Shown: positions 6,732 through 34,574 of the stretch, in pieces
Numbering within the stretch: the first letter of the stretch is position 1
Layout of the letters: every line of letters begins with the position of its first letter
Source: Rhodoglobus sp.
GTDB taxonomy: Bacteria; Actinomycetota; Actinomycetes; Actinomycetales; Microbacteriaceae
Direction of reading: 5' to 3'
Assembly (NCBI GenBank): GCA_025463515.1
Contig: JAODAQ010000075.1
Span: forward strand, 1 to 37,232
DNA: 37,232 nt
The notes under the pieces: generated by a model
Databases searched by the model: none
Told to the model about the DNA's origin: nothing
The model's input: only the letters and a program-made list of their open reading frames with translations
Program-made: the position numbers and the translations under genes

Positions 6732-8279
6732 ATGAGCCCCCGCCGCGTCCTCCTCTGGTCGGCGCTCGTCGGCGTGCTGACCGGCATCGTCACCCTGGCC
6801 ATCGCCGAGGCGGTCGCCGCGATCATGGTGCTGCCGTCCGGCAGCCCGCTGTTCGGGGTGGGCTCGCTCGTGATCGACCTCGTCCCGGGCTGGTTCAAGA
6901 CCGTCGTGATCGGGCTGTTCGGCACGGGCGACAAAGTCGCGCTGTTCGTTGCGCTGGGGATACTCGTGCTCCTGCTCGCGGTGGGGATCGGCATCCTGCA
7001 GTACCGCCGCCCGCCGTGGGGCATCCTCGCGCTCGTGGCCCTCGGAATCGTCGCGCTGCTCGCCGTCGTCACGCGGGCCGAGTCCAATGCGCTCTCGTCG
7101 GTGCCGACGCTGGTCGGGGTGCTGGCGGGGGTCATCGTCCTGCGGCTCGGGATCGACCGGCTGCACCGCTGGACGGACGCCGCAGCATCCCGGCCCGCAC
7201 GTGCCGCCGTCACGCGGCGCGGGTTCCTCGTCATGCTCGGTGCGACCACCGCGGGCGCTCTCGTGATCGGCTTGGGGGCTCGGGCGATCAACGCCGGGAC
7301 CGCGGCCGTGAACGCCGTGCGCGAGGCGATCAAGCTCCCGCGGCCCGCGACCCCGGAGGGCGCCTTCCCCGCCGGGGCGTCGCTCGACGTCCCCGGCATC
7401 TCGCCGCTGCTCTCGGCGAACGACACCTTCTACCGCATCGACACGGCGCTGCAGGTGCCTGTCGTCGACGCGTCCACCTGGAAGCTGCGCGTGACCGGGA
7501 TGGTCGAGCGCGAGGTGGAGATCACGTTCGACGAGCTGCTCGCGCTGCCGCTCGTCGAGCACACCGTCACCCTCATGTGCGTCTCGAACGAGGTCGGCGG
7601 CAACCTCGTGGGCAACGCGACCTGGCTCGGCTACCCGATCCGCGACCTGCTGGCCCAGGCCGGTCCGCTGCCCGGCGCCGACATGGTGCTCTCCACGAGC
7701 GTCGACGGGTTCACCGCGGGCTCGCCGCTCTCGGTGCTGCTCGAGGAGGACCGGCAGTCGCTGCTGGCGGTCGGGATGAACGGGGAGCCGCTGCCCCTCG
7801 AGCACGGTTTCCCCGCGCGGCTGGTCGTGCCGGGGCTGTACGGCTACGTGTCCGCCACCAAGTGGGTGACCGAGCTCAAGGTCACGACCTTCGCGAAGGA
7901 CATGGGCTACTGGACCCCGCGCGGCTGGGACGCGCTCGGGCCCGTCAAGACGGCGTCCCGCATCGACGTGCCGCAGAGCGGCGCAGGGGTCTCCGCCGGC
8001 CGCATTGCCGTCGCGGGCGTCGCGTGGGCGCAGCACCGCGGCATCGAGGCCGTGGAAGTCCGGGTGGATGACGGGACGTGGATGCCGGCCGTCCTGGCCG
8101 ACGCGATCTCGATCGACACTTGGCGCCAGTGGGTCTACGAGTGGGACGCGACATCCGGCAACCACACCGTCGCCGTGCGCGCGACCGGTGCCGTGGGCGA
8201 CACCCAGCGCGACGTGCGCCTCCCGCCCGCGCCGAACGGCTCGGAGGGGTACCACACGGTCACGGTGACCGTGGGCTAA
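6732..8279 (+). CDS. Membrane-anchored molybdopterin-dependent oxidoreductase (sulfite oxidase/MsrP fold)
   Basis: This is a Mo-cofactor enzyme of the sulfite oxidase superfamily; many actinobacterial members have an N-terminal multi-spanning membrane part and an unknown substrate. Of 515 residues, about 1-140 contain four hydrophobic helices. A Tat-like TRRGFLVMLG (161-170) precedes a fifth helix. The catalytic domain starts near 225, with the Mo-ligating Cys283 in LMCVSNEVGGN, followed by WLGYPIRDLL and a C-terminal Ig-like Mo-Co dimerisation domain (from about 430) ending in YEWDATSGNHTVAVRATG. The catalytic domain should face outside. ATG at 6732 lies 22 bases after the sugar transferase. 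The MOSC-domain gene 1.1 kb away also belongs to the molybdenum-handling world, but a link is not shown. Confidence 0.87.
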   Translation: MSPRRVLLWSALVGVLTGIVTLAIAEAVAAIMVLPSGSPLFGVGSLVIDLVPGWFKTVVIGLFGTGDKVALFVALGILVLLLAVGIGILQYRRPPWGILALVALGIVALLAVVTRAESNALSSVPTLVGVLAGVIVLRLGIDRLHRWTDAAASRPARAAVTRRGFLVMLGATTAGALVIGLGARAINAGTAAVNAVREAIKLPRPATPEGAFPAGASLDVPGISPLLSANDTFYRIDTALQVPVVDASTWKLRVTGMVEREVEITFDELLALPLVEHTVTLMCVSNEVGGNLVGNATWLGYPIRDLLAQAGPLPGADMVLSTSVDGFTAGSPLSVLLEEDRQSLLAVGMNGEPLPLEHGFPARLVVPGLYGYVSATKWVTELKVTTFAKDMGYWTPRGWDALGPVKTASRIDVPQSGAGVSAGRIAVAGVAWAQHRGIEAVEVRVDDGTWMPAVLADAISIDTWRQWVYEWDATSGNHTVAVRATGAVGDTQRDVRLPPAPNGSEGYHTVTVTVG

Positions 8280-8280
8280 C

Positions 8281-8306
8281 GCCCCCCGCCCCCGCCCCCA
8301 CCCCCC
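8281..8306 (-). other. G-quadruplex-forming run on the minus strand
   Basis: Four C-runs of 6, 5, 5 and 6 bases separated by single bases lie just after the oxidoreductase stop. On the minus strand this is four G-tracts with 1-base loops, the most stable class of predicted G-quadruplex. It sits 5 bases before the 5' hairpin of the DUF559 gene. It could act in termination or as a fragile site; no function is shown. Confidence 0.6.
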
Positions 8307-8311
8307 TTCGT

Positions 8312-8369
8312 CGAGAGTGCAAAATCTCACGGTGCAGGAGTGCTCGCACTGTACGTTCGTGCACTCTCG
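8312..8369. repeat. Hairpin repeat 5' of the DUF559 pseudogene
   Basis: CGAGAGTGCA (8312-8321) pairs perfectly with TGCACTCTCG (8360-8369) and imperfect pairing continues inward. The left arm CGAGAGTGCAAAATCTC is nearly identical to the left arm of a second hairpin at 9344-9400, on the other side of the DUF559 gene. The two hairpins are in direct orientation. Confidence 0.75.
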
Positions 8370-8421
8370 GGACGGTGGAAAGTCCACGCGCCCACTCGCG
8401 CGGTACGGCATTCTCGGGATC

Positions 8422-9368
8422 GTGACGCGCCGCAGACCTCTCGACCCGCGGCTTCCCCCATCGTTCCGCGTCGCCGAGGCGCGGGCCATGGGTGTACCGG
8501 TCGGTCGACTCAGAGCCTCGGACCTCGAGAGGCCGTTCCACGGCGTGAGGGCTGCGCCAGGGGTCGCACGCACTCCCGTGCTGACGCGCACGCGCGCGTA
8601 TCTCGCGGCCTCCCCCGCTCAGTTCGCCTTCAGCTATGAGACCGCCGCACTGCTGTACGGGATCCCGCTACCGCGTCGGCTCGAGGAAGGACCACTGCAC
8701 GTCTCTGTTCCCGCTGACCACGCGCACGTCCGGCGCGCTGGTGTAGTCGGGCATCGCGGACTGACGGCGTCGAGAATGCGCGCCGGGATGCCCGTGGTGC
8801 CACCCGAGACAGCCTGGCTGCACTTGGCAACGAGACTGAACCTCGATGAACTGATCATCGCGGGGGATTACCTTCTTCAGGGCCGGCGCCCCCTGTCGAC
8901 CTTCAGGGCCGGCGCCCCCTGTCGACGCTAGATCGACTTCTCAAGGAAGTCGACTCGTCCGCCGGACAGCGCGGAGTGGCACTTGCCCGGCGTGCGCTGC
9001 TCGAGGTCCGTGTCGGCGCGCGGTCGCCCCGCGAGACCATGTTGCGCCTCGTCATCGTCAGGGTGGGCCTTCCGGAACCGATGGTCGGGTTCGCCGTTCA
9101 TCACCACGGGGCATTCGTGGGAACGCCCGACCTTGCCTACCCTGAGTTGCGAATCGCCATCGAGTACGAGGGCCAGCATCACCGAACGGACAAGGACAGG
9201 TATGAGGACGACATCGTTCGCCGCGAACTGTTCCGGCGCGCGGGCTGGCTCGTCTTCCTGGTGACGGACCGGACCCTGTCCCGACCGCAGGTCCTGCTGG
9301 GCGAGCTCGAGGCACTCCTCGTCGAGCGGGCAGAAGGCAGCGGCGAGAGTGCAAAATCTGACGGTTGA
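8422..9368 (+). pseudogene. DUF559 (Vsr/PD-(D/E)XK-like) endonuclease-domain gene, frameshifted by a 26-bp tandem duplication
   Basis: The first part (from GTG 8422) begins MTRRRPLDPRLPP and has the wHTH/AbiEi-like N-terminus (RVAEARAMGVPVGRLRASDL, ERPFHGVRA) seen in actinobacterial DUF559 proteins. The frame runs into a stop at 8931. The missing C-terminal nuclease-like domain continues in another frame, from about 8930 to the stop at 9368, with DLAYPELRIAIEYEGQHHR, DRYEDDIVRRELFRRAGW and VTDRTL. A perfect 26-base tandem duplication at 8875-8900/8901-8926 causes the shift: deleting one copy joins both halves into one frame of about 306 residues (LSTLDRLLKEV at the joint). Everything else is intact, so the lesion is recent, or an assembly error. 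Codon bias looks weaker than in neighbours, which fits transfer. Function of the family is uncertain. Confidence 0.88.
8875..8926. repeat. Perfect 26-bp tandem duplication
   Basis: Bases 8875-8900 (starting CTTCAGGGCCGGCGCC and ending GTCGAC) are repeated exactly at 8901-8926. The unit length is not a multiple of three and puts the second half of the DUF559 gene out of frame. Identity of the two copies points to a very recent slippage event. Confidence 0.97.
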
Positions 9369-13435: not shown

Positions 13436-14458
13436 GTGCACAGCGCCTCAGCCCGGATCGCAGGAATCGGGATCTACCTCCCGGACGAGACCCGCACCAC
13501 GAAGCAGACGGAGCGCGACCTCCGCGACCGGAATCCGAAGCTCAAGCTCGCGACCGGGCTGATCGGCAGGCTCACCGGCGTGGAGTCCGTGCACCTGCGG
13601 CCCGAGGGCTGGCAGACCTCCGACCTGGCCGTGGCGGCCGCGGAGAAGGCGCTCGAGGAGAGCCCCGGAGACATCGATCTGGTGATCTTCGCGAGCGCGA
13701 GCCAAGACCTCATCGAGCCGGCCACGAGCCACATCGTGGCCGCCAAACTGGGCCTCGACTGCCCGGTCATGGACGTGAAGAACGCCTGCAACAGCGTTAT
13801 CAACGCGATGCAGGTCGCCGAGGCGCTCATCGCCGCGGGCCAGTACCGCCGGGTGCTGATCGCGAGCGGCGAGCAGCCCTCGCACGGCGTGCGGTGGGCG
13901 CTCAAAGACCACGAGCAGTTCATCCGCTCGTTCCCGGGCTACACGATGAGCGACGGCGGGGCCGCGGTGATCCTCGAGGCGACGGATACGGCGACATTCG
14001 AGAACGGCGCCGCGGGCATCCTCGATTCGAGCTTCGTCGCGGTGAGCCGGCACTGGGAGATCGGCACCTTGCCGACGGGCGGATCGATGAACCCGCGGGA
14101 CATGGACCGCGCCTACTTCGACATGGACGGCTCCGGGCTGCAGCAGGCGTTCCTCGAGCTCGGGCCGCAGCCGGTGCTCGACCTGCTCGAGCGCAACGGG
14201 CTGAACTGGGACGACTTCGACCTCGTCGCGATCCACCAGGTCGCGCTGCCGTACCTGCCGCCGATCTTCGAGCGGCTCGGCGTCGCGCCCGGCAAGTCGG
14301 TGATCACGATCGCCGACCACGGCAACCTCGCCTCCGTCACCCTGCCGCTGCAGTTGCAGCTCGCGCGGGAGCGGGGCCTTGTCGCGCCGGGAAGTCTGGT
14401 GCTGCTCATCGGGTTGGCGGGCGGCATCAGCCTGGGGCTCATGGTGGTGCGGCTGTGA
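13436..14458 (+). CDS. Ketoacyl-ACP synthase III / OleA-like thiolase-fold condensing enzyme
   Basis: Enzymes of this fold join acyl-CoA/ACP units by Claisen condensation; OleA joins two fatty acyl-CoAs head to head to give a beta-keto acid. The 340-residue protein keeps the full triad: Cys118 (VKNACNSVINAM), His267 (VAIHQVALPYL) and Asn297 (DHGNLASVT), with GLAGGISLGLMV near the end. The region around Cys lacks the usual FabH AGF context, and the enzyme heads an operon with an AMP-ligase and an OleD-like reductase, so an OleA-type or secondary-metabolite role fits better than housekeeping FabH. The stop overlaps the GTG of the glycosyltransferase (4 bases). Substrates are unknown; distinguishing OleA from a malonyl-using KASIII needs a phylogeny. 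Confidence 0.85.
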   Translation: MHSASARIAGIGIYLPDETRTTKQTERDLRDRNPKLKLATGLIGRLTGVESVHLRPEGWQTSDLAVAAAEKALEESPGDIDLVIFASASQDLIEPATSHIVAAKLGLDCPVMDVKNACNSVINAMQVAEALIAAGQYRRVLIASGEQPSHGVRWALKDHEQFIRSFPGYTMSDGGAAVILEATDTATFENGAAGILDSSFVAVSRHWEIGTLPTGGSMNPRDMDRAYFDMDGSGLQQAFLELGPQPVLDLLERNGLNWDDFDLVAIHQVALPYLPPIFERLGVAPGKSVITIADHGNLASVTLPLQLQLARERGLVAPGSLVLLIGLAGGISLGLMVVRL

Positions 14459-15210
14459 GTCTCGACAGGCTCGATCAGCGATTGGCCGTCGTCGTCCCCG
14501 TGTACAACGAGGCGGCGGGGATCGCGGCGACGCTCGACGCGCTGGAGGCCCAGGTCGACTCCGACTTCGATGTGTGGTTCGTCGACAACGCGAGCACGGA
14601 TGCCTCGGCCGCCGTGATCGCGGCACGGGGGCATGCGCGCTGGCACATCGTGCAGGAGCCGCAGAAGGGCACTGGCGCCGCCGCGGACACCGGGATGCGC
14701 GCCGCCATCGCCGCGGGCGCGACCCTGCTCGCCCGCACCGACGCGGACTGCCTGCCGCGCGCGGACTGGACGGCGGCCGTCCGCCGATCGCTCGGCACCC
14801 TCGGCCTCGTGGGCGGGGAGCTCGTGCCGCGCCACGACGAGGGCCTCTCACTCGCGCGGCGGGTGCTGCTGCGCGCCGCGGTGGAGCTCGCGGAGGCGTT
14901 CGGGCGGATCCGGCCGGGCAACCGCTCGGCCGAGTACCGGGGGCCGTACCTCATGGCCGCGGGCTGCAATGTGGGGATCCGCGCCGACCTGTACGTCGAG
15001 GCGGGCGGCTTCCCGCGCACCGCCATCGAGGACCTGCACGAGGACCGCGCGCTCGTGAACGCCGTGCGCCGGCTGACCGGCAACTACGCTCGCCGCCGCG
15101 ACGTCGTCGTGTTCGGCAGCTCGCGCCGCGTGAGCGCGTGGGGGCTCAAGAACACGCTGCTCTGGTACAAGGACCACGCGTACAAGCCCGAGCACGTGGA
15201 CATCCGATGA
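14455..15210 (+). CDS. Glycosyltransferase family 2 protein
   Basis: GT2 enzymes transfer sugars from nucleotide sugars with inversion. The 251-residue protein has the GT-A start VVVPVYNEAAGIAATLDAL (residues 13-31), VDNASTDAS, the metal-binding ARTDADCLPRADW and an acidic EDLHEDRAL motif near residue 190, followed by SSRRVSAWG. There is no transmembrane segment, so it acts in the cytoplasm on a soluble or membrane-surface acceptor. The first residues (SLDRLDQ) are encoded by a copy of the dispersed repeat CTCGACAGGCTCGA, so the N-terminus may be repeat-derived. It is embedded between a condensing enzyme and a P450 with 4-base overlaps, so the pathway product is plausibly glycosylated. Donor and acceptor cannot be inferred. 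Confidence 0.88.
   Translation: MSLDRLDQRLAVVVPVYNEAAGIAATLDALEAQVDSDFDVWFVDNASTDASAAVIAARGHARWHIVQEPQKGTGAAADTGMRAAIAAGATLLARTDADCLPRADWTAAVRRSLGTLGLVGGELVPRHDEGLSLARRVLLRAAVELAEAFGRIRPGNRSAEYRGPYLMAAGCNVGIRADLYVEAGGFPRTAIEDLHEDRALVNAVRRLTGNYARRRDVVVFGSSRRVSAWGLKNTLLWYKDHAYKPEHVDIR
14457..14474. repeat. Copy of the short palindromic repeat at the glycosyltransferase start
   Basis: GAGTCTCGACAGGCTCGA follows the GTG start codon and matches the repeat at the rsmA 3' end over the 15-base core. It sits exactly at the joint between the ketoacyl synthase stop and the glycosyltransferase N-terminus. Confidence 0.6.
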
Positions 15211-16352
15211 CGATCGCGCAGGCGGTCAAGTGGGAGGAGCGGGTGATGCGCGCGGCGCACCCCGTCGTCTACCCGCTGCTGCAGACCGCCCGGAGGCCCG
15301 TGCTGCGCGTTCCGGGCCTCGGCGTCCTCGTGCGCGACGCGGGCCTGCTGCGCTCGACGCTCATGGACACCGCGACGTTCACGAAGACGGGCCCGGGCAG
15401 CCCGAGCGACCTGTGGACGCCCGTGCTCGGCCCGGCGGTCCTGCTGAACATGGAGGGCGCCGACCACCTCGCGCTGCGGCGCAAGCTCGGGAGCCTGTTC
15501 GCCCCCGCCTACGTCGAGCCGCTGGCCGCGGCATCCCTGCCGGTGTCGCAGCTCACTCAGCGCCTCATGGCGGGGGAGACGGTCGACATCGTCGCGGAGG
15601 TCAAGCGCTACGCGAGCGCGATGATCGCCCAGCTCGTCGGGCTCCCGCTGGAGAGCATCGATGAGGAGCTGTTCGACCGCGTCTCATCGATCACCCGGTT
15701 CGTGCGCCTCGCCCGGCCCCGCCTCACCCCGGCTCAGGTAGGGGTCGCGCGCGGCATCCTCGACGAGCTCACCGCGCACGCGCGCACCGCCTATCGCAGC
15801 GGCGACGAGCAGACAGTGCCGGGCCGGATGCGCGCGCTCGGGCTCACGGAGGACGAGGCCATGGGTGCCGTCGGCGCGTTCGTGCTGACCGGCACCGAGA
15901 CCCTGGTCTCGTACATCCCGCGCCTCGTCGCCGTCCTGGTGGACTCCGGCTGGCTGCCGCTCATCGCCGCGGACCGCTCCCTCGCCGAGCCCGCGATCGC
16001 CGAGGGGCTACGGGTGACCACCCCGTCGCCCGTGATGCTGCGCAGCGTCGTCGCGCGCGGCTCGATCGGGCCGGTGGCGGTGCGGCCCGGCGACCGCGTG
16101 ATCCTCGCGACGTACGCGGCGAACCGCGCGCTCGGGCCGTTCGACCCCGGGACCAACGTCGCCGCGCAGCTGAAGCAGCTGTGGTTCGGGGCCGGCACGC
16201 ACTTCTGCCTGGGGGCGCCGCTCGCGATGGCGCAGATCCGGCTGACGCTCGACGCGCTACTGGACGCGGGCGATCTGCGGATCGTGTCGCGGTCGGCGGC
16301 CCGCGGGGTGCTGATCCCGTCGTACGCGTCGCTGAGGGTCGCGCGTGCCTGA
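15207..16352 (+). CDS. Cytochrome P450 (first of two related copies)
   Basis: Bacterial class I P450s oxidise lipids and secondary metabolites using ferredoxin-delivered electrons. The 381-residue soluble protein has the I-helix oxygen-binding TGTET (228-232), the ExxR motif EGLR (266-269) and the heme loop WFGAGTHFCLG with thiolate Cys334. The N-terminal PVLRVPGLGVLVRD and C-terminal RGVLIPSYASLRVARA stretches match the P450 at 22296-23537 (PLLKVPGLGWITAD, KRVLIPAYESLVVQKA), so the two are paralogues. ATG 15207 overlaps the glycosyltransferase stop; the 3' end overlaps the ligase GTG. No ferredoxin or reductase gene is adjacent. Its place between a condensing enzyme and an acyl-activating ligase suggests hydroxylation of a fatty or beta-keto/hydroxy acid intermediate (inference). 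Confidence 0.93.
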   Translation: MTIAQAVKWEERVMRAAHPVVYPLLQTARRPVLRVPGLGVLVRDAGLLRSTLMDTATFTKTGPGSPSDLWTPVLGPAVLLNMEGADHLALRRKLGSLFAPAYVEPLAAASLPVSQLTQRLMAGETVDIVAEVKRYASAMIAQLVGLPLESIDEELFDRVSSITRFVRLARPRLTPAQVGVARGILDELTAHARTAYRSGDEQTVPGRMRALGLTEDEAMGAVGAFVLTGTETLVSYIPRLVAVLVDSGWLPLIAADRSLAEPAIAEGLRVTTPSPVMLRSVVARGSIGPVAVRPGDRVILATYAANRALGPFDPGTNVAAQLKQLWFGAGTHFCLGAPLAMAQIRLTLDALLDAGDLRIVSRSAARGVLIPSYASLRVARA

Positions 16353-17811
16353 CATCCTCGCGGCGTTGCTGGAGGCGTGCGAGCGCGCGCCCACGGAGCC
16401 GGCCATGACGCTCGGGCGGCGCACGCTCCGCTACGGGGAGCTGCGCGGGCGCATCCTCGGCATCGCGGGCGCGCTCGCCGAGCACGGGCTGGTGCCCGGC
16501 GACCGCGTGCTGTTCTCCGTGCGGCCCGGCCTCGACGGCATCTGCCTCGCGCTCGGCGTGATCGCGGCCGGCGGCACTATCGTGTTCGCCGATCCGGGGG
16601 CGGGGGAGGCGATGTTCCGCGCCCGCGCCGGGCTCGCGGTGCCGAAGTGGGTGGCCGCCGAGTCGCTGCTGTACGCGGCGTCGTCCGGCCCGCTCAGGGG
16701 CATCGCGCGGTCACGCGGGCTCGAACTGCCCGACTACGGCAGCGTCGTGCCGGACGCGCGGCACATCTACGCGGGCCCGTGGCTGCCGGGGGTGCCCCGC
16801 GGGGCGACCGCGCTCCGCCGGTTGAGTAGGCCCCCTAGGGCCGTATCGAAACCCGCGCCGCCCACGGCCGAGGCCCTCATCATCTTCACCAGCGGCACCA
16901 CCTCTCACCCGAAGGCGGTAGTGCACTCGCGGGCGTCCCTCGGCACCGGGCTCGACGACTTCGCCCGCTACATCGGCTTCGTGCCGGGCGAGCGCGTGCT
17001 GACCGACCAGCTCATGGTGGGCATCCCGGCGCTCATCTCCGGGGCGCACTGGGTGCTGCCGCCCGCAGGGGCAGACCCCGGTGCGAAGCCCGCGAAGTAC
17101 CTGCCGCTCATCCAGGATGCCGACGTGCTGTTCGCCGTGCCGGCCGCGCTCGACGCGCTGCTGCGCGCCGGGATCCGCCCGCCTCACCTGCGGATGCTGC
17201 TCGTGGGCGGTGCTCCCGTCCTGCGGCCGCTGCTCGAGCGGGTGCGCGCGCAACTGCCCGGGACGGGCATCCGGGCCATCTACGGGATGACGGAGATCCT
17301 CCCCGTAGCGATCGCGGACGGCGACGAGAAGCTCGCCTTCGACGGCCCCGGCGACTACGTGGGCGAGCTCATGGGCGCGATCGCCGCCCGCATCGACGGC
17401 GGCGAGCTCGTGGTCTCGGGCGAGGGCCTCGGCAGCTACCTCGGGGAGCCGCCGCTGGAGGAGCTGCGCACCGGCGACCTCGCGCGGCTCGAGGACGGCC
17501 GTGTGATTCTCGGCGGCCGCAACAAGGACATGTTCATCCGCGGCACCACCAACGTCTACCCGGGGCTGTACGAGCCGGTGATCGCGGGAATCCCTGGAGT
17601 GCAGGAGGCCGCGCTCGTGGGCGTGCCCGACGAGATCGGCGACGACCAGCTCGTGCTCGTGATCGTGGGCGACGCGAGCCGGGTCGGGGCCGCCCTGCCC
17701 GGACTCATCGATGCGGCGGTGATGCCCGACCGGATCGTCGTGCTCGACGCGCTGCCGAAGAAGGGGCGGAGCCAGAAGCTCGACCGCGCGGCGCTCCGCG
17801 AGCTGCTGTGA
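16345..17811 (+). CDS. AMP-dependent acyl synthetase/ligase, OleC-like (beta-lactone synthetase candidate)
   Basis: ANL-superfamily adenylating enzyme. In olefin clusters OleC turns a beta-hydroxy acid into a beta-lactone with ATP. Of 488 residues, the phosphate loop is FTSGTTSHPKA (181-191), the A5 motif YGMTEILPVA (313-322), TGD 377-379, the hinge LGGRNKDMFIRG (389-400) and the C-terminal Lys478 in KKGRSQKLDR. Residues 159-170 (RLSRPPRAVSKP) are encoded by an intact copy of a 35-base palindromic repeat inserted in frame just before the ATP loop; the reading frame stays open. The gene overlaps the P450 by 8 bases and the reductase by 4. OleC assignment rests on context (synthase plus OleD-like reductase); an ordinary acyl-CoA ligase is the alternative. 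Confidence 0.82.
   Translation: MPDILAALLEACERAPTEPAMTLGRRTLRYGELRGRILGIAGALAEHGLVPGDRVLFSVRPGLDGICLALGVIAAGGTIVFADPGAGEAMFRARAGLAVPKWVAAESLLYAASSGPLRGIARSRGLELPDYGSVVPDARHIYAGPWLPGVPRGATALRRLSRPPRAVSKPAPPTAEALIIFTSGTTSHPKAVVHSRASLGTGLDDFARYIGFVPGERVLTDQLMVGIPALISGAHWVLPPAGADPGAKPAKYLPLIQDADVLFAVPAALDALLRAGIRPPHLRMLLVGGAPVLRPLLERVRAQLPGTGIRAIYGMTEILPVAIADGDEKLAFDGPGDYVGELMGAIAARIDGGELVVSGEGLGSYLGEPPLEELRTGDLARLEDGRVILGGRNKDMFIRGTTNVYPGLYEPVIAGIPGVQEAALVGVPDEIGDDQLVLVIVGDASRVGAALPGLIDAAVMPDRIVVLDALPKKGRSQKLDRAALRELL
16819..16853. repeat. Palindromic REP-like repeat inside the ligase coding sequence
   Basis: This is a 35-base copy of the element GGTTGAGTAGGCC-N7-GGCCGTATCGAAACCC, also found at 34501-34535 and inverted at 34536-34574. 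It differs from the copy at 34501 only in the 7-base centre. Here it is translated as a Pro/Arg-rich linker. Confidence 0.85.
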
Positions 17812-18659
17812 GGGTCGCCGTCACCGGTGCCGCCGGGTTCGTCGGCGGTGCGATCGCGCGAGCTCTCGGCGCCCGCCACGAGGTCGTCCCGCTCACCCGC
17901 CGCGAGTGGGACATCACGTCGGGCCCCATCGACGGCCGCGCCGACGCCGTGGTCCACTGCGCGGCGCTCGCCGACGACTCCGCGCCGCTGGGCAGGGCGA
18001 TGCTCGTGAACCGCATCGGCACGCGCAACGTCGTGGACAGCTTCCCGGGCGCGCGCATCGTGCATATCAGCACCTCGAGCGTGTACGACGCGTTCACCCC
18101 GTCGGTCCGCGTCACGGAGGACACCCCGCTGCCGAGCAGGTTCCTGAGCAGCTACTCGGAGTCGAAGGCCGCGGCCGAGGCCGAGCTCCCGCCCGGCGCT
18201 GTCGTACTGCGGCCGCACGCCGTCTACGGCCCGGGCGACCGCACCCTCCTGCCGAGGGTGCTGGCGGGCATCCGGGGCCACCGCCTCGTCCTGCCCGAGG
18301 GCGCCGAAGTGCGCCACACGCTCACCCACATCGACAACCTGGCAGCGGCGGTCGAGCTCGCACTCACCGGGCCGCCCGGCGTGTACAACGTGGGCGACGA
18401 CACCGACGTGCTGCTCTCGGCGGTGCTGAAGGAGTTCCTGGTCAGGCGGGGGCGGCCGGATGTCGCGATCCGCAGCATCCCCTACGCCGCCGCCTTCGCC
18501 GCGGCGGGCGCGCTCGAGAGGCTGTCCCGCAGGCCACGGCTCACCCGGTACGCGGTCAGCCAACTCGGCGCAGAGCGGACCCTCGATCTCACGCGCGCCC
18601 GCGAGCACCTCGGCTACGCCCCCGGCCCGACGACCCTAGCCGGCGCCGAGGGCTGGTAA
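17808..18659 (+). CDS. NAD(P)-dependent epimerase/dehydratase-type SDR, OleD-like reductase candidate
   Basis: This extended SDR of 283 residues has the Rossmann motif TGAAGFVG (6-13), HISTSSVYD (87-94) and the active-site YSESK (Tyr116/Lys120), so it is catalytically complete. In olefin and beta-lactone pathways, OleD reduces the beta-keto acid from OleA to the beta-hydroxy acid used by OleC. The position as last gene of the five-gene operon, overlapping the ligase by 4 bases, supports that role (inference). The protein is shorter than typical OleD and could also be a nucleotide-sugar epimerase working with the glycosyltransferase. The stop is at the edge of the CmtR-type operator palindrome. 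Confidence 0.82.
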   Translation: MRVAVTGAAGFVGGAIARALGARHEVVPLTRREWDITSGPIDGRADAVVHCAALADDSAPLGRAMLVNRIGTRNVVDSFPGARIVHISTSSVYDAFTPSVRVTEDTPLPSRFLSSYSESKAAAEAELPPGAVVLRPHAVYGPGDRTLLPRVLAGIRGHRLVLPEGAEVRHTLTHIDNLAAAVELALTGPPGVYNVGDDTDVLLSAVLKEFLVRRGRPDVAIRSIPYAAAFAAAGALERLSRRPRLTRYAVSQLGAERTLDLTRAREHLGYAPGPTTLAGAEGW

Positions 18660-19696: not shown

Positions 19697-20607
19697 TGGT
19701 GGAGCACGACCACGAGCACGCAGACTCGGGCCGGGGGCGCCTCGCGATAGCCCTCGGGATCACCGCCGCCGTACTCGTCGCCGAGGTCGTCGGTGCCGTC
19801 ATCACGGGCAGCCTCGCGCTCCTCGTCGACGCCGCGCACATGCTCACCGATGCGGGCGGGCTCGCGATCGCGCTGCTCGCCGCAACCCTGGTCAAGCGGC
19901 CCGCGAACTCGAAGCGCACCTGGGGGATGGCCCGGGCGGAGGTGCTCGGCGCCACCGCGCAGGCCGCGATCCTCCTGGCCGTCGGGATCTTCGTCCTCGT
20001 CGAGGCCGTGCAGCGGCTGTTCAACCCGCCGGAGATCACGGGCAGCCAGCTGGTGGTGTTCGGCATCATCGGGCTGCTCGGGAACGTGGCATCCATCGCC
20101 GTGCTCGCCTCCAGCCGGGGGAAGAACCTCAACCTTCGGGCGGCCTTCCTCGAAGTGCTGAACGACGCGCTCGGCTCACTCGCCGTCATCGCGGCGGCGA
20201 TCGTCATCGCGACCACGGGCTTCCAGCTCGCGGATGCGATCGCCGCGATCCTCATCGGCGCGCTCATCCTGCCGCGCGCCGTGCTCCTGCTGCGCGACAC
20301 CACGAGCGTGCTGCTCGAGTCCACGCCCAAGGGCCTCGACCTCGACTCGGTGCGCGACCACCTGCTCGAGCTGCCCCACGTGAAGAGCGTGCACGACCTG
20401 CACGTCAGCCAGATCGCGACCGGCCTGCCGGTGCTCACGGCCCACGTCGTCGTCGACGACTCGTGCTTCTACGACGGCCACAACGCCCGGATGCTCGACG
20501 ACCTGCAGCACTGCGTCGCCGAGCACTTCGCGGTGCAGATCGAGCACTCGACGTTCCAGCTCGAGCCCGCCGGCCACGGCGCGCACGAGCACCCCACGCA
20601 CGACTAG
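19696..20607 (+). CDS. CzcD/ZitB-type cation diffusion facilitator
   Basis: CDF antiporters export Zn, Cd or Co in exchange for protons. The 303-residue protein has six predicted helices with the metal-site motifs LLVDAAHMLTDAGGLAIAL (TM2 HxxxD) and EVLNDALGSLAVIAAA (TM5), the CzcD-typical LFNPPEI loop, and a cytoplasmic C-terminal domain with HDLHVSQIATGLPVLTAHVV. It is His-rich at the N-terminus (EHDHEHADS) and the C-terminus (HGAHEHPTHD), as usual for Zn/Cd carriers. The ATG overlaps the stop of the shorter CDF. With the CmtR-like repressor it forms a complete metal-resistance operon ending at a repeat that also covers its stop codon. Confidence 0.93.
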   Translation: MVEHDHEHADSGRGRLAIALGITAAVLVAEVVGAVITGSLALLVDAAHMLTDAGGLAIALLAATLVKRPANSKRTWGMARAEVLGATAQAAILLAVGIFVLVEAVQRLFNPPEITGSQLVVFGIIGLLGNVASIAVLASSRGKNLNLRAAFLEVLNDALGSLAVIAAAIVIATTGFQLADAIAAILIGALILPRAVLLLRDTTSVLLESTPKGLDLDSVRDHLLELPHVKSVHDLHVSQIATGLPVLTAHVVVDDSCFYDGHNARMLDDLQHCVAEHFAVQIEHSTFQLEPAGHGAHEHPTHD

Positions 20608-20686
20608 CGCGCCGTCCGCACCAGTCGTCAAAAGTTGCTCCTTCGAGCGCGCTAAGGAGCACTTTGTGACGAATCGAGCGCGCTAG
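20604..20686. repeat. Nested palindromic repeat joining the stop codons of two convergent genes
   Basis: Inner hairpin: CGTCAAAAGTTGCTCCTT (20626-20643) pairs with AAGGAGCACTTTGTGACG (20654-20671) with two mismatches. Outer arms CTAGCGCG (20604-20611) and CGCGCTAG (20679-20686) include the stop codons of the czcD-like gene and of the MBG gene. CGAGCGCGCTA occurs twice (20644, 20675). It probably works as a bidirectional terminator and looks like a dispersed repeat. Confidence 0.7.
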
Positions 20687-22293
20687 ACCCTCCGCCTCCA
20701 CGCGATGACGGCGATGGCGGCGGCGATGAACACGACTGCTGCCGCGCCGATCACCCAGGGCAGCCAGGCGAGGTCGCCGGTGCCGCTGTTCGGCATCGGG
20801 TCGGGCGTGGGGGTCGGCGACGACGTGCGCGTCGGCGTCGGAGTGGGTGTCGGTGTCGGAGTGTGGGTCGGGGTCACGGTGGGAGTAGGAGTGGGCGTCG
20901 GTGTGGGGTTGACCGCCGTGACCGTGACGACTCCCGGCAGGAAGGTGATGGCGTAGTCGGTCGAGCTGACTCCTGAGGGCTGCACGGGGTAGCTGCCCGG
21001 CCCGCTCGTGACGCCCGCTGCGGTCGTGAAGGCGAGCGTGCCGGAGAGGTTCGCCAGCGTCTGCCCGTTGACGAACCCGGTCGCAGTGGCGGTGAAGTCG
21101 CCGTTGGCCTGCCCCTGGAGCCGCGACTTGCCGAGCGCCGTGATCGCGAGCGGCGCCGGGGTGATCGTGGTGGTGCCGCTCGCGCCGTAGGTGATGACGT
21201 AGTTGGTGGCGACCGCGCCGGCGCAGCTCGTCGTGGCGGGGTAGCCGCCGACGTGGGCGGTCGCGCCCGCTGAGGTCGTGCACGTGGGCTGGGTGGTCAG
21301 GACGGTTTTCGTGTCGGGGCTGATGAAGCCCGAGTAGGCAGCGGTCACGGGGGCGGCCCCGCCGTAGGTCGACTGCGCGTTCGAGGGCGTGATCACGAGG
21401 GGCGCGGGGCTGATCGTCATGGTGCCGTCGACGAACGTGGGCGCGTAGTTCGCCGCAGTGCCCGCGCACCTCGTCGGGGCGCTCGGCACCACCGGCGCCA
21501 CGGTCGTGCACGTGATTCCGGGCACTGACGTCTCGTTATTGGGGAGGGGCAGGAAGAGAGGTACGACCGCGGGCAGGGCGCCGTAGACGCCGCTGTCGCT
21601 GCTTGCCGTGATCGTGATCAGCGCCTTCCCGATCACGACCGCGCCCGCGTCGTAGATGAAGTTGTAGTTGAAGCCGGGCTGCGCCACTGCTCCGGAGCAG
21701 AGGCCGGCGGTGGCGTATGTGGCGACCGGGTCGGTAAGGGCGGTCGATGAGACGCACAGCACGCCGGAGGTGTCGACCCCGGCCATGCCCGCGGGATACA
21801 CGGGGCTCACAGTCGCGGCCGAGCCGTAGGCCGCCGTGCCCGAGGCGCCGATGTGCAGGTCGGATGTGAGCGCGGAGACGGTCACCGACACGACGCTGGT
21901 GACCGCGGGATTGGTGCCGTCGGTGACGGTAGTGGTGAGCGGCGACGTAGCGGTCAGGCCGATGGTGGGCGTGAACGTGAGTAGCCCCAGCTGGGTTGTG
22001 AGGTAGCTGCCGATTCCGGTGAGCGTGGCGCTTCCGGAGCCGATCACGAAGTCGCCGCCGGTGAGCGTGCCGTTCGCCACGGGCCAGGTGATGGTCAGGT
22101 CCAGGCTGTCGCCATCGGGATCCGAGATCGACCCGCCGGCGAACGGCATCGTCGCCGTGTGGTCGTCGCTCAGGACCACGGCATTCAGGGAGACCACCGG
22201 CGGATCCCCGGTGGCAGACGCCGCGAGCGGAGCCGTGAGCACCAGCGCCCCGATGAACAGGGCAGCTGCACCGAATACCAGGGGACGCTTCAT
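20683..22293 (-). CDS. Secreted MBG-domain surface protein with Pro/Thr stalk and C-terminal anchor
   Basis: The 536-residue protein begins with a signal peptide (MKRPLVFGAAALFIGALVLTA, likely cut after ASA). An Ig/cadherin-like region (about 28-150) contains SDPDGDSLDLTITWP. Then come MBG-type repeats with VYGALPAV and STYGGAAPV motifs, KALITITA, APLVITPSNA and APLAITAL beta-strands, and paired cysteines spaced about 15-20 residues apart. A TPTPTPT stalk precedes PMPNSGTGD, a hydrophobic helix and WRRRV. MPNSG resembles a degenerate LPXTG sorting signal, so sortase anchoring is possible; simple membrane anchoring is the alternative. It lies 2 bases after the P450 stop and must share its transcript. 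Adhesin-like role inferred. Confidence 0.85.
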   Translation of the reverse strand: MKRPLVFGAAALFIGALVLTAPLAASATGDPPVVSLNAVVLSDDHTATMPFAGGSISDPDGDSLDLTITWPVANGTLTGGDFVIGSGSATLTGIGSYLTTQLGLLTFTPTIGLTATSPLTTTVTDGTNPAVTSVVSVTVSALTSDLHIGASGTAAYGSAATVSPVYPAGMAGVDTSGVLCVSSTALTDPVATYATAGLCSGAVAQPGFNYNFIYDAGAVVIGKALITITASSDSGVYGALPAVVPLFLPLPNNETSVPGITCTTVAPVVPSAPTRCAGTAANYAPTFVDGTMTISPAPLVITPSNAQSTYGGAAPVTAAYSGFISPDTKTVLTTQPTCTTSAGATAHVGGYPATTSCAGAVATNYVITYGASGTTTITPAPLAITALGKSRLQGQANGDFTATATGFVNGQTLANLSGTLAFTTAAGVTSGPGSYPVQPSGVSSTDYAITFLPGVVTVTAVNPTPTPTPTPTVTPTHTPTPTPTPTPTRTSSPTPTPDPMPNSGTGDLAWLPWVIGAAAVVFIAAAIAVIAWRRRV

Positions 22294-22295
22294 CC

Positions 22296-23537
22296 TCACA
22301 CCGCTTTCTGTACTACGAGGCTCTCGTACGCCGGAATGAGCACCCGCTTGCCGTACCGGCGCGACACCACGCGGAACGGCCGCCCGTCGCCCACGAGCAG
22401 CTCGATGATCTTGGTCAGCTCCGCCCGCGCGAGCGGACCGCCGAGGCACAGGTGGCGCCCCGCGCCGAACCAGAGCTGGCGGTTCTGCGGGATGTAGTCG
22501 CGGTCGACCCGGTATTCGCCCGCGAGGTTGTTCGCGGTCCAGGTGAGCACGACGATGCGCTCGCCGGCCGTGAGGGTGTGCTTGCCGATGGTGAGGTCAG
22601 CGAGCACCGAGCGCCCGATGATCGGCGCCGGGGAGGTGACGCGCAGGGCCTCGCGCACGGCGTTCTCCATCAGCTTCGGATCCGCGATGAGCGCGTGCTG
22701 CTGGCCGGTGTCGTAGAGCAGGGCCGCGGTGCGGGCCATGGCGGATGCCGCGGTCTCGGTGCCCGCGACCATGAGCAGGGTCGACAGCCCCTTCGTCTCC
22801 TGCAGGCTGAGACCGAGGTCGCGGCAGCGGCCGATGATCGTCGTGCCCGGCGCGGTCTCGAAGGCCGCGTCGATGTGGCCGGTGAGCTTCTCGACGATCT
22901 CCCTGGCCTTGGCGATCTTCTCGGGCGGCAGCACGGTGTCGGCGGTGGTGCCGAGCGCCGTCGCGGCGAGCTCCTCGCCGGTGCGGAAGATCTCGCGGTA
23001 GGCGTCGTCGGTGTCTTCTGCGGGCATCCCCAGCAGAGTCACCACCATCTGGCCGACCAGGATGCGGCTCAGGTCGGCGAGGTCGATGGGCTCACCGGCG
23101 TCGAACGCGCGCCGGGCATCCTCGATGCGACTGCCCCAGGCCCGCTCGACGAACTCGAAGCTGGACTTCTCGGTGAACAGCTCGCGGCTCTTGGTGCGCA
23201 GTTCGTAGTGGCCGGGGCCGTCGAAGAGGTCGTAGACCCAGTCGCCCAGGATCTGCGCCCACAGGTGGCCCACGCCGCCCTCGCTCAGGAGGGTGAAGTG
23301 CTCGGGGTCGTTGAGCACGGAGCGCGCGGTGAGCGGGTCGGCAGTGATCCAGCCGAGGCCCGGCACCTTGAGCAGAGGCTTGGCGAACATGCCGATCCAG
23401 TTGAGGAACGGCAGAGCGGGGCGTGCGGCGCTCAGGAGCCGGTGCTCGTGCGCGCGGGCGCTCGGGCCGATGCCGTCGGTCAGCGGGTTGAGTGTGCGCT
23501 CGCGCACGGGGGCGGTGAGATCCTCAGCTACGGGCAC
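22296..23537 (-). CDS. Cytochrome P450 (second of two related copies)
   Basis: This 413-residue soluble P450 has VAGTET (257-262) in the I-helix, the ExxR motif EALR (296-299) and the heme loop WFGAGRHLCLGGPLA with Cys364. It resembles the P450 in the five-gene operon at both ends, which is unusual enough to suggest a shared family and perhaps related substrates. The start is GTG 23537 (VPVAEDLTAPV): a TAGATT box on the minus strand ends 6 bases upstream. It is divergent from the TMEM175/SDR unit across 27 bases containing a perfect palindrome, and is followed by the surface-protein gene. No redox partner is adjacent. Substrate unknown. Confidence 0.93.
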   Translation of the reverse strand: MPVAEDLTAPVRERTLNPLTDGIGPSARAHEHRLLSAARPALPFLNWIGMFAKPLLKVPGLGWITADPLTARSVLNDPEHFTLLSEGGVGHLWAQILGDWVYDLFDGPGHYELRTKSRELFTEKSSFEFVERAWGSRIEDARRAFDAGEPIDLADLSRILVGQMVVTLLGMPAEDTDDAYREIFRTGEELAATALGTTADTVLPPEKIAKAREIVEKLTGHIDAAFETAPGTTIIGRCRDLGLSLQETKGLSTLLMVAGTETAASAMARTAALLYDTGQQHALIADPKLMENAVREALRVTSPAPIIGRSVLADLTIGKHTLTAGERIVVLTWTANNLAGEYRVDRDYIPQNRQLWFGAGRHLCLGGPLARAELTKIIELLVGDGRPFRVVSRRYGKRVLIPAYESLVVQKAV

Positions 23538-34500: not shown

Positions 34501-34574
34501 GGTTGAGTAGGCCGCCCGCGGCCGTATCGAAACCCAGTTTCGATACGCGCCCCAGAGGGCACTACTCAACCGGC
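34501..34574. repeat. Inverted pair of REP-like repeats between tetR and gnd
   Basis: GGTTGAGTAGGCC-N7-GGCCGTATCGAAACCC (34501-34535) is followed at once by an inverted, more diverged copy (34536-34574, AGTTTCGATACG...CTACTCAACCGG). The whole unit folds as a long palindrome between two convergent stop codons and likely ends both transcripts. The first copy matches the one in the ligase gene at 16819. Confidence 0.88.

Follow-up and report, generated by a model that had tools for sequence, protein, structure and literature searches.

In a 37,232-nucleotide stretch of Rhodoglobus sp. DNA (the window; contig C53 of a 95% complete genome of 3.3 Mb in 78 contigs), we found a conserved five-gene operon at 13436–18659 that is very probably biosynthetic. 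A dedicated lipid pathway is the best explanation for it, and we put the probability of this reading at about one half. The cluster is a variant of known OleA-initiated pathways; it is new in that its ligase is distinct and in that a sixth gene, for a second cytochrome P450 (P450b), goes with it. Its likeliest product is an oxidised, glycosylated alpha-branched beta-hydroxy acid that ends as a beta-lactone or as a mycolate-like glycolipid. The gene set, the catalytic residues, the conservation of the operon, its linkage to P450b and the failure to find OleB are all observed at the level of the sequence.

The initial annotation had described five genes overlapping by 4–8 bases. A check of the open reading frames found all five intact on the plus strand, with consecutive overlaps of 4, 4, 8 and 4 bases, and Pfam searches returned the families it had named. 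The first gene (13436–14458, 340 amino acids (aa)) encodes an OleA-type ketoacyl synthase III (KAS III) with the ACP_syn_III domain and its C-terminal partner domain. It is followed by a family 2 glycosyltransferase (GT2; 14455–15210, 251 aa, Glycos_transf_2) with DAD at residues 96–98 and an EDLHEDRAL motif, and by a cytochrome P450 (P450a; 15207–16352, 381 aa, p450) with the heme cysteine C334, an ExxR motif and the I-helix motif GTET. An AMP-forming ligase of the ANL family (16345–17811, 488 aa, AMP-binding and AMP-binding_C) and an extended, OleD-like short-chain dehydrogenase/reductase (SDR; 17808–18659, 283 aa, Epimerase) complete the operon. These limits stand for the five genes, but they missed the linked P450b, which lies downstream at 22305–23537 on the minus strand, convergent with the operon.

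We surveyed 398 Microbacteriaceae genomes for OleA matches at 1e-40 or better and inspected all 36 loci found. The 36 of 398 genomes with a match belong to 15 of 85 genera, and 4 of the 10 genomes from the window's own genus are among them; G312 was missed because its contig starts inside the GT2 gene. Twenty-five of the 36 loci have the arrangement OleA-GT2-P450-ligase (type I) and the other 11 form a second class (type II). The gene order proposed as a search target in the initial annotation, OleA-GT2-P450-ligase-SDR, is kept in full in 20 of the 25 type I genomes, more than chance would give; two of the other five are cut by contig ends (G113 and G342) and three have no SDR (G119, G223 and G049). 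In Salinibacterium soli, a gene for a 303-aa protein with no Pfam match lies between OleA and GT2 (L045 9127–10038; L051 is the same record), and locus L052 has an insertion of similar length.

P450b follows the operon in part of its range. It was found in 15 of the 398 family genomes, and one of these matches (G111) is that genome's own operon P450 (35%). Every one of the other 14 genomes has the operon, 13 with an OleA match and the last being G312. Thirteen of these 14 have P450b and the operon on one contig; in G113 P450b is on a different contig, and the contig of the operon ends. Fisher's test gave 3.7e-14, computed with 13 of the 14 genomes and ignoring relatedness, and the linkage may be partly explained by shared regional synteny. 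At 1e-60, P450b is present in 13 of the 25 type I genomes and was not found in the other 12, some of which are incomplete, nor in any of the 11 type II genomes of the family. Its clade (support 100/100) also holds genes beside clusters of G757, G627, G736 and G743, and in two other families P450b genes occur close to clusters of this kind. The inspected stretches of L125 and L128–L133 showed none, nor did those of the f26 and f34 loci with the order OleA-GT2-ligase-P450. We conclude from this distribution that P450b is part of the pathway in these lineages without being required for it everywhere. Both P450s exceed the PF00067 cut-off of 22.8 bits (25.3 and 39.3 bits). The heme cysteine and ExxR are kept in all 58 P450a rows that have residues there (two truncated rows aside), and P450b, about 35% identical to P450a, has the heme cysteine, ExxR and the I-helix motifs. 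The P450b of G386 is in two pieces (L063, about 1587–2827), perhaps through a frameshift or an assembly error.

By tree position and motif, the synthase is of the OleA type and apart from FabH. The residues Cys118, His267 and Asn297, which the initial annotation had called intact, are conserved without exception in the 16 aligned family members; the same KAS III triad occurs in all 52 rows of our wider alignment, FabH included. The OleA-type Glu-Pro motif (Glu117-Pro in Xanthomonas campestris numbering) corresponds to E94-P95 of the window synthase. According to PMC7064751, this glutamate acts as a base and is needed for condensation in Xanthomonas OleA, and Glu followed by Pro is found in all but two of the OleA proteins treated there. 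In our alignment, 47 of the 52 rows have glutamate in the E94 column, the exceptions being three FabH rows, which carry F or T at the position of the motif, and the rows L153 and L156. In the tree of these 52 KAS III proteins, the window synthase groups with 36 other actinobacterial rows in a FabH-free clade of 37 (100/97), and the three FabH rows group with the unclear rows L153 and L156 (100/99). A long branch separates the synthase clade from OleA of the OleABCD type, and the nearest named relatives of the window synthase are OleA records from Salinibacterium and Leifsonia. These data suggest that the enzyme would condense two acyl-CoAs.

The ligase, which the initial annotation had called OleC-like, proved to be related to OleC but not to be OleC itself. 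It scored 69 bits against the OleC model NF045786 (cut-off 900) and 112 bits against PRK09274 (cut-off 478), whereas the ligases of three OleA-OleC-SDR loci from outside the family (L141, L142 and L134) scored 357–554 bits against the former and 531, 528 and 407 bits against the latter. Failing NF045786 says little, because none of 149 genomes of the phylum reached its cut-off, OleBC fusions included; PRK09274, whose cut-off was passed by L141, L142 and L145 but not by L134, is the telling model. In a phylogenetic tree, 18 type I ligases and nine OleC proteins lay on one side of a branch (100/97) that separated them from 27 other ANL enzymes, and each of the two groups formed a single clade (100/100), with the window ligase outside that of OleC. 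An earlier sampling with 21 other ANL enzymes agreed (100/99). The controls came from four genomes and included low-scoring enzymes as hard controls; eight type I or OleC rows were left out of the 21-control tree and L207 and L204 out of the 27-control tree, and the ANL matches L160 and L162 of the window's own genome stand outside both. The A5 motif TE-x-[L/F]P, a pattern picked, like the A8 pattern discussed below, after viewing the alignment, occurs in 18 of 18 type I ligases and 8 of 9 OleC proteins and was absent from all 29 of the other ANL enzymes; three rows of type I and six distant ones of the ANL family had been dropped from this alignment, and no weight is placed on the A10 pattern. 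By these comparisons the ligase is a member of a separate sister clade of the sampled OleC proteins, and its PRK09274 score and tree position rule out OleC identity. The ligase gene also contains, at 16820–16853 on the plus strand, a dispersed 34-base palindromic element of the form GGTTGAGTAGGCC-N6-GGCCGTATCGAAACC, which is read in frame as part of the variable linker ahead of the P-loop. A second copy lies at 34501–34534 of the window and at least 60 further places in the genome match; the same linker position holds a related palindrome copy in L040 and other repeat-like stretches in L041 and L044.

The best NCBIfam match of the SDR is OleD (NF042422), as the initial annotation implied, albeit at 91 bits against a cut-off of 580. 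Its glycine motif (G7, G10 and G13) and Tyr-x3-Lys pair (Y116 and K120) reach at least 95% conservation across 62 rows. We then searched 32 genomes for OleB, using as probe the 310-aa OleB domain of the OleBC fusion of G399. The best match in the window genome, where the initial annotation had suggested looking for a homologue, was 29 bits and none reached 1e-15. Among the 23 type I Microbacteriaceae genomes searched (all but G113 and G342), OleB was strong in four (G346, G119, G223 and G049; 324–353 bits) and weak in G316 (34%, 80 bits); 18, the window genome included, had no match at 1e-15. Five operon genomes outside the family gave four weak matches (60–69 bits) and one none, and all four OleBC control genomes, one of them the probe source G399, gave matches. 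Each of the four strong OleBC loci has its own adjacent oleA and oleD; the canonical oleA of G346 is in two pieces (L238, about 7963–8942), perhaps through a frameshift or an assembly error. A canonical ole pathway and a type I cluster can thus occur together in one cell, which speaks against the type I ligase being a substitute for OleC. OleBC was found in 3 of 3 type I genomes without the SDR and in 1 of 20 with it. As the three SDR-less genomes (G119, G223 and G049) are all OleBC carriers, OleD may supply the missing activity in trans, but they belong to one genus and the pattern amounts to about one event. Set against an OleA-OleC-OleD pathway, the window thus has an OleA-type synthase and no OleB found, together with a ligase that is sister to OleC and an SDR below the OleD cut-off.

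A survey of 394 genomes of the class gave OleA matches in 36, 32 of them from families other than Microbacteriaceae. We inspected the best locus in 20 of these 32 genomes (L124–L143) together with five weaker loci (L152–L156); nine genomes were left out. All five genes were present in 12 of the 20 loci and part of the set in four (L125, L126, L127 and L137); three were OleA-OleC-SDR loci (L134, L141 and L142) and one had OleA alone (L143). None of the weaker loci had the five-gene set: L153 has type II-like neighbours, and L155, with an OleC-type ligase and an SDR, is labelled OleA-OleC-SDR by those genes alone. In genus g117 the order is OleA-GT2-ligase-P450-SDR. A GT2 model gave 27 strong matches in 24 of the 394 genomes, 23 of which adjoin an OleA match, as judged by eye from their positions, suggesting that the GT2 keeps to the OleA pathway. 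The remaining four matches are in G627, G736, G743 and G681. In G627 and G736, GT2 and ligase are fused in one chain at the OleA locus (784 and 801 aa; L126 10004–12358 and L127 6586–8991), and another GT2 lies with P450a and SDR at a second locus (L233 and L232) with P450b alongside. In G743 (L231 6232–13219), the neighbours of the ligase and GT2 are a P450b relative, a PapA-type acyltransferase and a pair of adjacent KAS III genes, the second of which scores below the Pfam cut-offs. The match in G681 is weaker and has no such neighbours.

The 11 type II loci combine OleA and the P450 with an adenylate-forming enzyme of another family and a distant SDR (32–38%); no SDR was found in L081, a truncated locus. 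All three type II-like loci tested (L047, L049 and L153, the last from another family) had a protein above the cut-off of TIGR02304. In trees, the OleA and P450 of type II share one Microbacteriaceae clade with those of type I, and the outgroups are again type I; type II therefore probably derives from cassette exchange, in which ligase and reductase were replaced and the glycosyltransferase was lost or exchanged around a retained OleA-P450 pair. In type II loci of the Herbiconiux kind, P450a is kept and no relative of the window GT2 is present in the stretch inspected. Genes for GT21-type and GT1-type glycosyltransferases and an unknown protein occur in the type II locus of G315 (L080) and in the Agromyces locus L049. 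In L049 (2466–10189), L080 and L153 these appear as a TIGR02304-type enzyme, an HpnI-like GT21, the unknown protein (190 aa with no Pfam match in L049) and a GT1; the synthase of L153 lacks the OleA glutamate.

A scheme of condensation, reduction, oxidation and glycosylation is, in our judgement, a rather probable account of what these enzymes do, with their roles taken from their families. OleA would carry out a Claisen condensation of two fatty acyl-CoAs to an alpha-branched beta-keto acid, which the SDR would reduce to a 2-alkyl-3-hydroxy acid. The two P450s may then hydroxylate the alkyl chains, and the GT2 may place a sugar on one hydroxyl. The OleC-sister ligase would adenylate the carboxylate, most likely in preparation for closure of a beta-lactone by the 3-hydroxyl. 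We infer the substrates, the order of the steps and the final ring closure from these assignments. Descent beside OleC speaks for lactone closure, and the A8 loop that the ligase has kept leaves acyl transfer possible. Ring closure by this enzyme is plausible, and the chance that the end product is a beta-lactone falls somewhat short of even.

Several other explanations are far less probable. If the cluster were an ole cluster with OleB elsewhere in the genome, its end product would be a long-chain olefin, a proposal that accommodates OleA, the OleD-like SDR, an OleC-related ligase and the OleBC genes of four type I relatives. We set it aside as very improbable, given that no OleB was found in the window genome or, beyond a weak match in G316, in most of its type I relatives, and that the four OleBC loci come with an oleA and oleD of their own. 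Even less probable is an ordinary FabH or polyketide-starter synthase with unrelated neighbours. By phmmer, two FabH-type chains (109 and 106 bits) rank slightly above the OleA chains (96 bits), so plain similarity would mislead on the class of the synthase. The FabH-free clade and Glu94 lead us to reject this assignment; in addition, the operon is conserved and the genome has a separate FabH-like gene elsewhere. It is also conceivable, if improbable, that the P450s are helper proteins of the glycosyltransferase rather than oxidases. Among NCBIfam models, TIGR04515, which describes P450-derived glycosyltransferase activators, ranks first for P450b (82 bits) and third for P450a (47 bits). Both scores are far under its cut-off of 343 bits, the heme cysteine and ExxR are kept in P450a rows and in P450b, and the Herbiconiux-kind loci retain P450a with no relative of the window GT2 in view. 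P450-derived activators, moreover, serve another type of glycosyltransferase.

The alternative that comes closest, a possible although less favoured one, is a mycolate-like glycolipid. The ligase would make the acyl-AMP of an alpha-branched beta-hydroxy (or fatty) acid and hand it on to CoA, to a carrier or to a sugar hydroxyl, with no beta-lactone formed. Several observations weigh against lactone closure, or against a uniform oxidation step, and some of them favour this alternative. An N-x-Y-type A8 loop, like that of CoA ligases, is present in 18 of 18 type I ligases, none of nine OleC proteins and 15 of 29 other ANL enzymes. The ligase falls beyond the OleC clade, with scores nowhere near those of OleC proteins. 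In type II clusters OleA and the P450 are retained while the TIGR02304 enzyme serves as ligase, which leaves room for an activation step other than lactone closure, and Agromyces locus L049 combines that enzyme with its GT21-type and GT1-type glycosyltransferases. The GT2-ligase fusion of two genomes, which also supports a dedicated pathway as such, counts in favour of the glycolipid, and the PapA-type acyltransferase that neighbours the cluster of G743 points to an acylated glycolipid. The cluster P450s of g117 and f34 form a distant branch (28–34% identity) without the I-helix acid, and the oxidation step may therefore differ there. On the other side, the sister relationship to OleC and the shared A5 motif argue for lactone closure, and the operon itself has no gene for an acyltransferase or a carrier protein. 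We therefore keep a dedicated, OleA-initiated lipid pathway as the preferred reading, with the beta-lactone as the slightly favoured of the two endings.

The surroundings of the operon are of other kinds. A PadR gene and a HAAS-like gene (its HAAS match is below cut-off) lie on the 5' side, and an ArsR-type regulator and two cation-efflux genes lie on the 3' side. A protein with MBG domains (PF18676) is encoded at 20683–22197 on the minus strand, between the cation-efflux genes and P450b. A scan of the window for promoters and terminators, and for repeats at 20500–22300, gave nothing informative.

If the product is indeed a glycosylated beta-lactone or a mycolate-like glycolipid, the cluster would point to a lipid class common to several actinobacterial families, and its ligase, as the sister of OleC, would shed light on the gain or loss of beta-lactone closure within the adenylate-forming enzymes. 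With P450b and the cassette swaps that occur in nature, the sequence of the steps can be put to the test. Tentatively, one may go further: the ligase clade could be an undescribed adenylate-forming class next to the beta-lactone synthetases, and the six-gene pathway could provide several actinobacterial families with a so far unknown group of alpha-branched lipids that are glycosylated and doubly oxidised, with ligase and reductase exchanged as cassettes while OleA and the P450 are kept.

The initial annotation knew of no described pathway with this gene set, a statement that we correct here. Section 11 of PMC7064751 describes OleA, a glycosyltransferase, OleC, a P450 and OleD in Actinoplanes atraurantiacus, whose genome has no oleB and whose OleA is active, and proposes a hydroxylated, glycosylated beta-lactone; as given there, the case is a single prediction. 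Like the window, that region has the same five kinds of gene and no OleB in its genome. Compared by description only, it differs in its listed order (which may not be literal), in a ligase that is called OleC and in that the section mentions no second P450. Our searches of the open-access literature, mostly at abstract level but with passages of PMC7064751, PMC7158056, PMC11837247 and PMC12141560, turned up no account of a second P450, of a ligase clade of this kind or of type II clusters. New here are P450b, the sister clade of ligases, the split clusters with a GT2-ligase fusion and the type II architecture. OleA-OleC-OleD clusters without OleB, of the nocardiolactone and lipstatin type, share with the window an OleA-type condensation, an SDR, an AMP-forming enzyme and the lack of OleB. 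By contrast, the ligases of loci of that type (L141, L142 and L134) fall inside the OleC clade, and the window adds the GT2 and two P450s. The two adjacent KAS III genes of G743 resemble, by arrangement only, LstA and LstB of the heterodimeric lipstatin synthase as summarised in PMC12141560, whereas the window has a single OleA. With OleABCD olefin clusters (Xanthomonas; OleBC fusions), the window shares an OleA with Glu-Pro and an OleD-like SDR; it differs in that OleB was not found and its ligase is not OleC, and the canonical cluster coexists with the type I operon in 4 of the 23 type I genomes.

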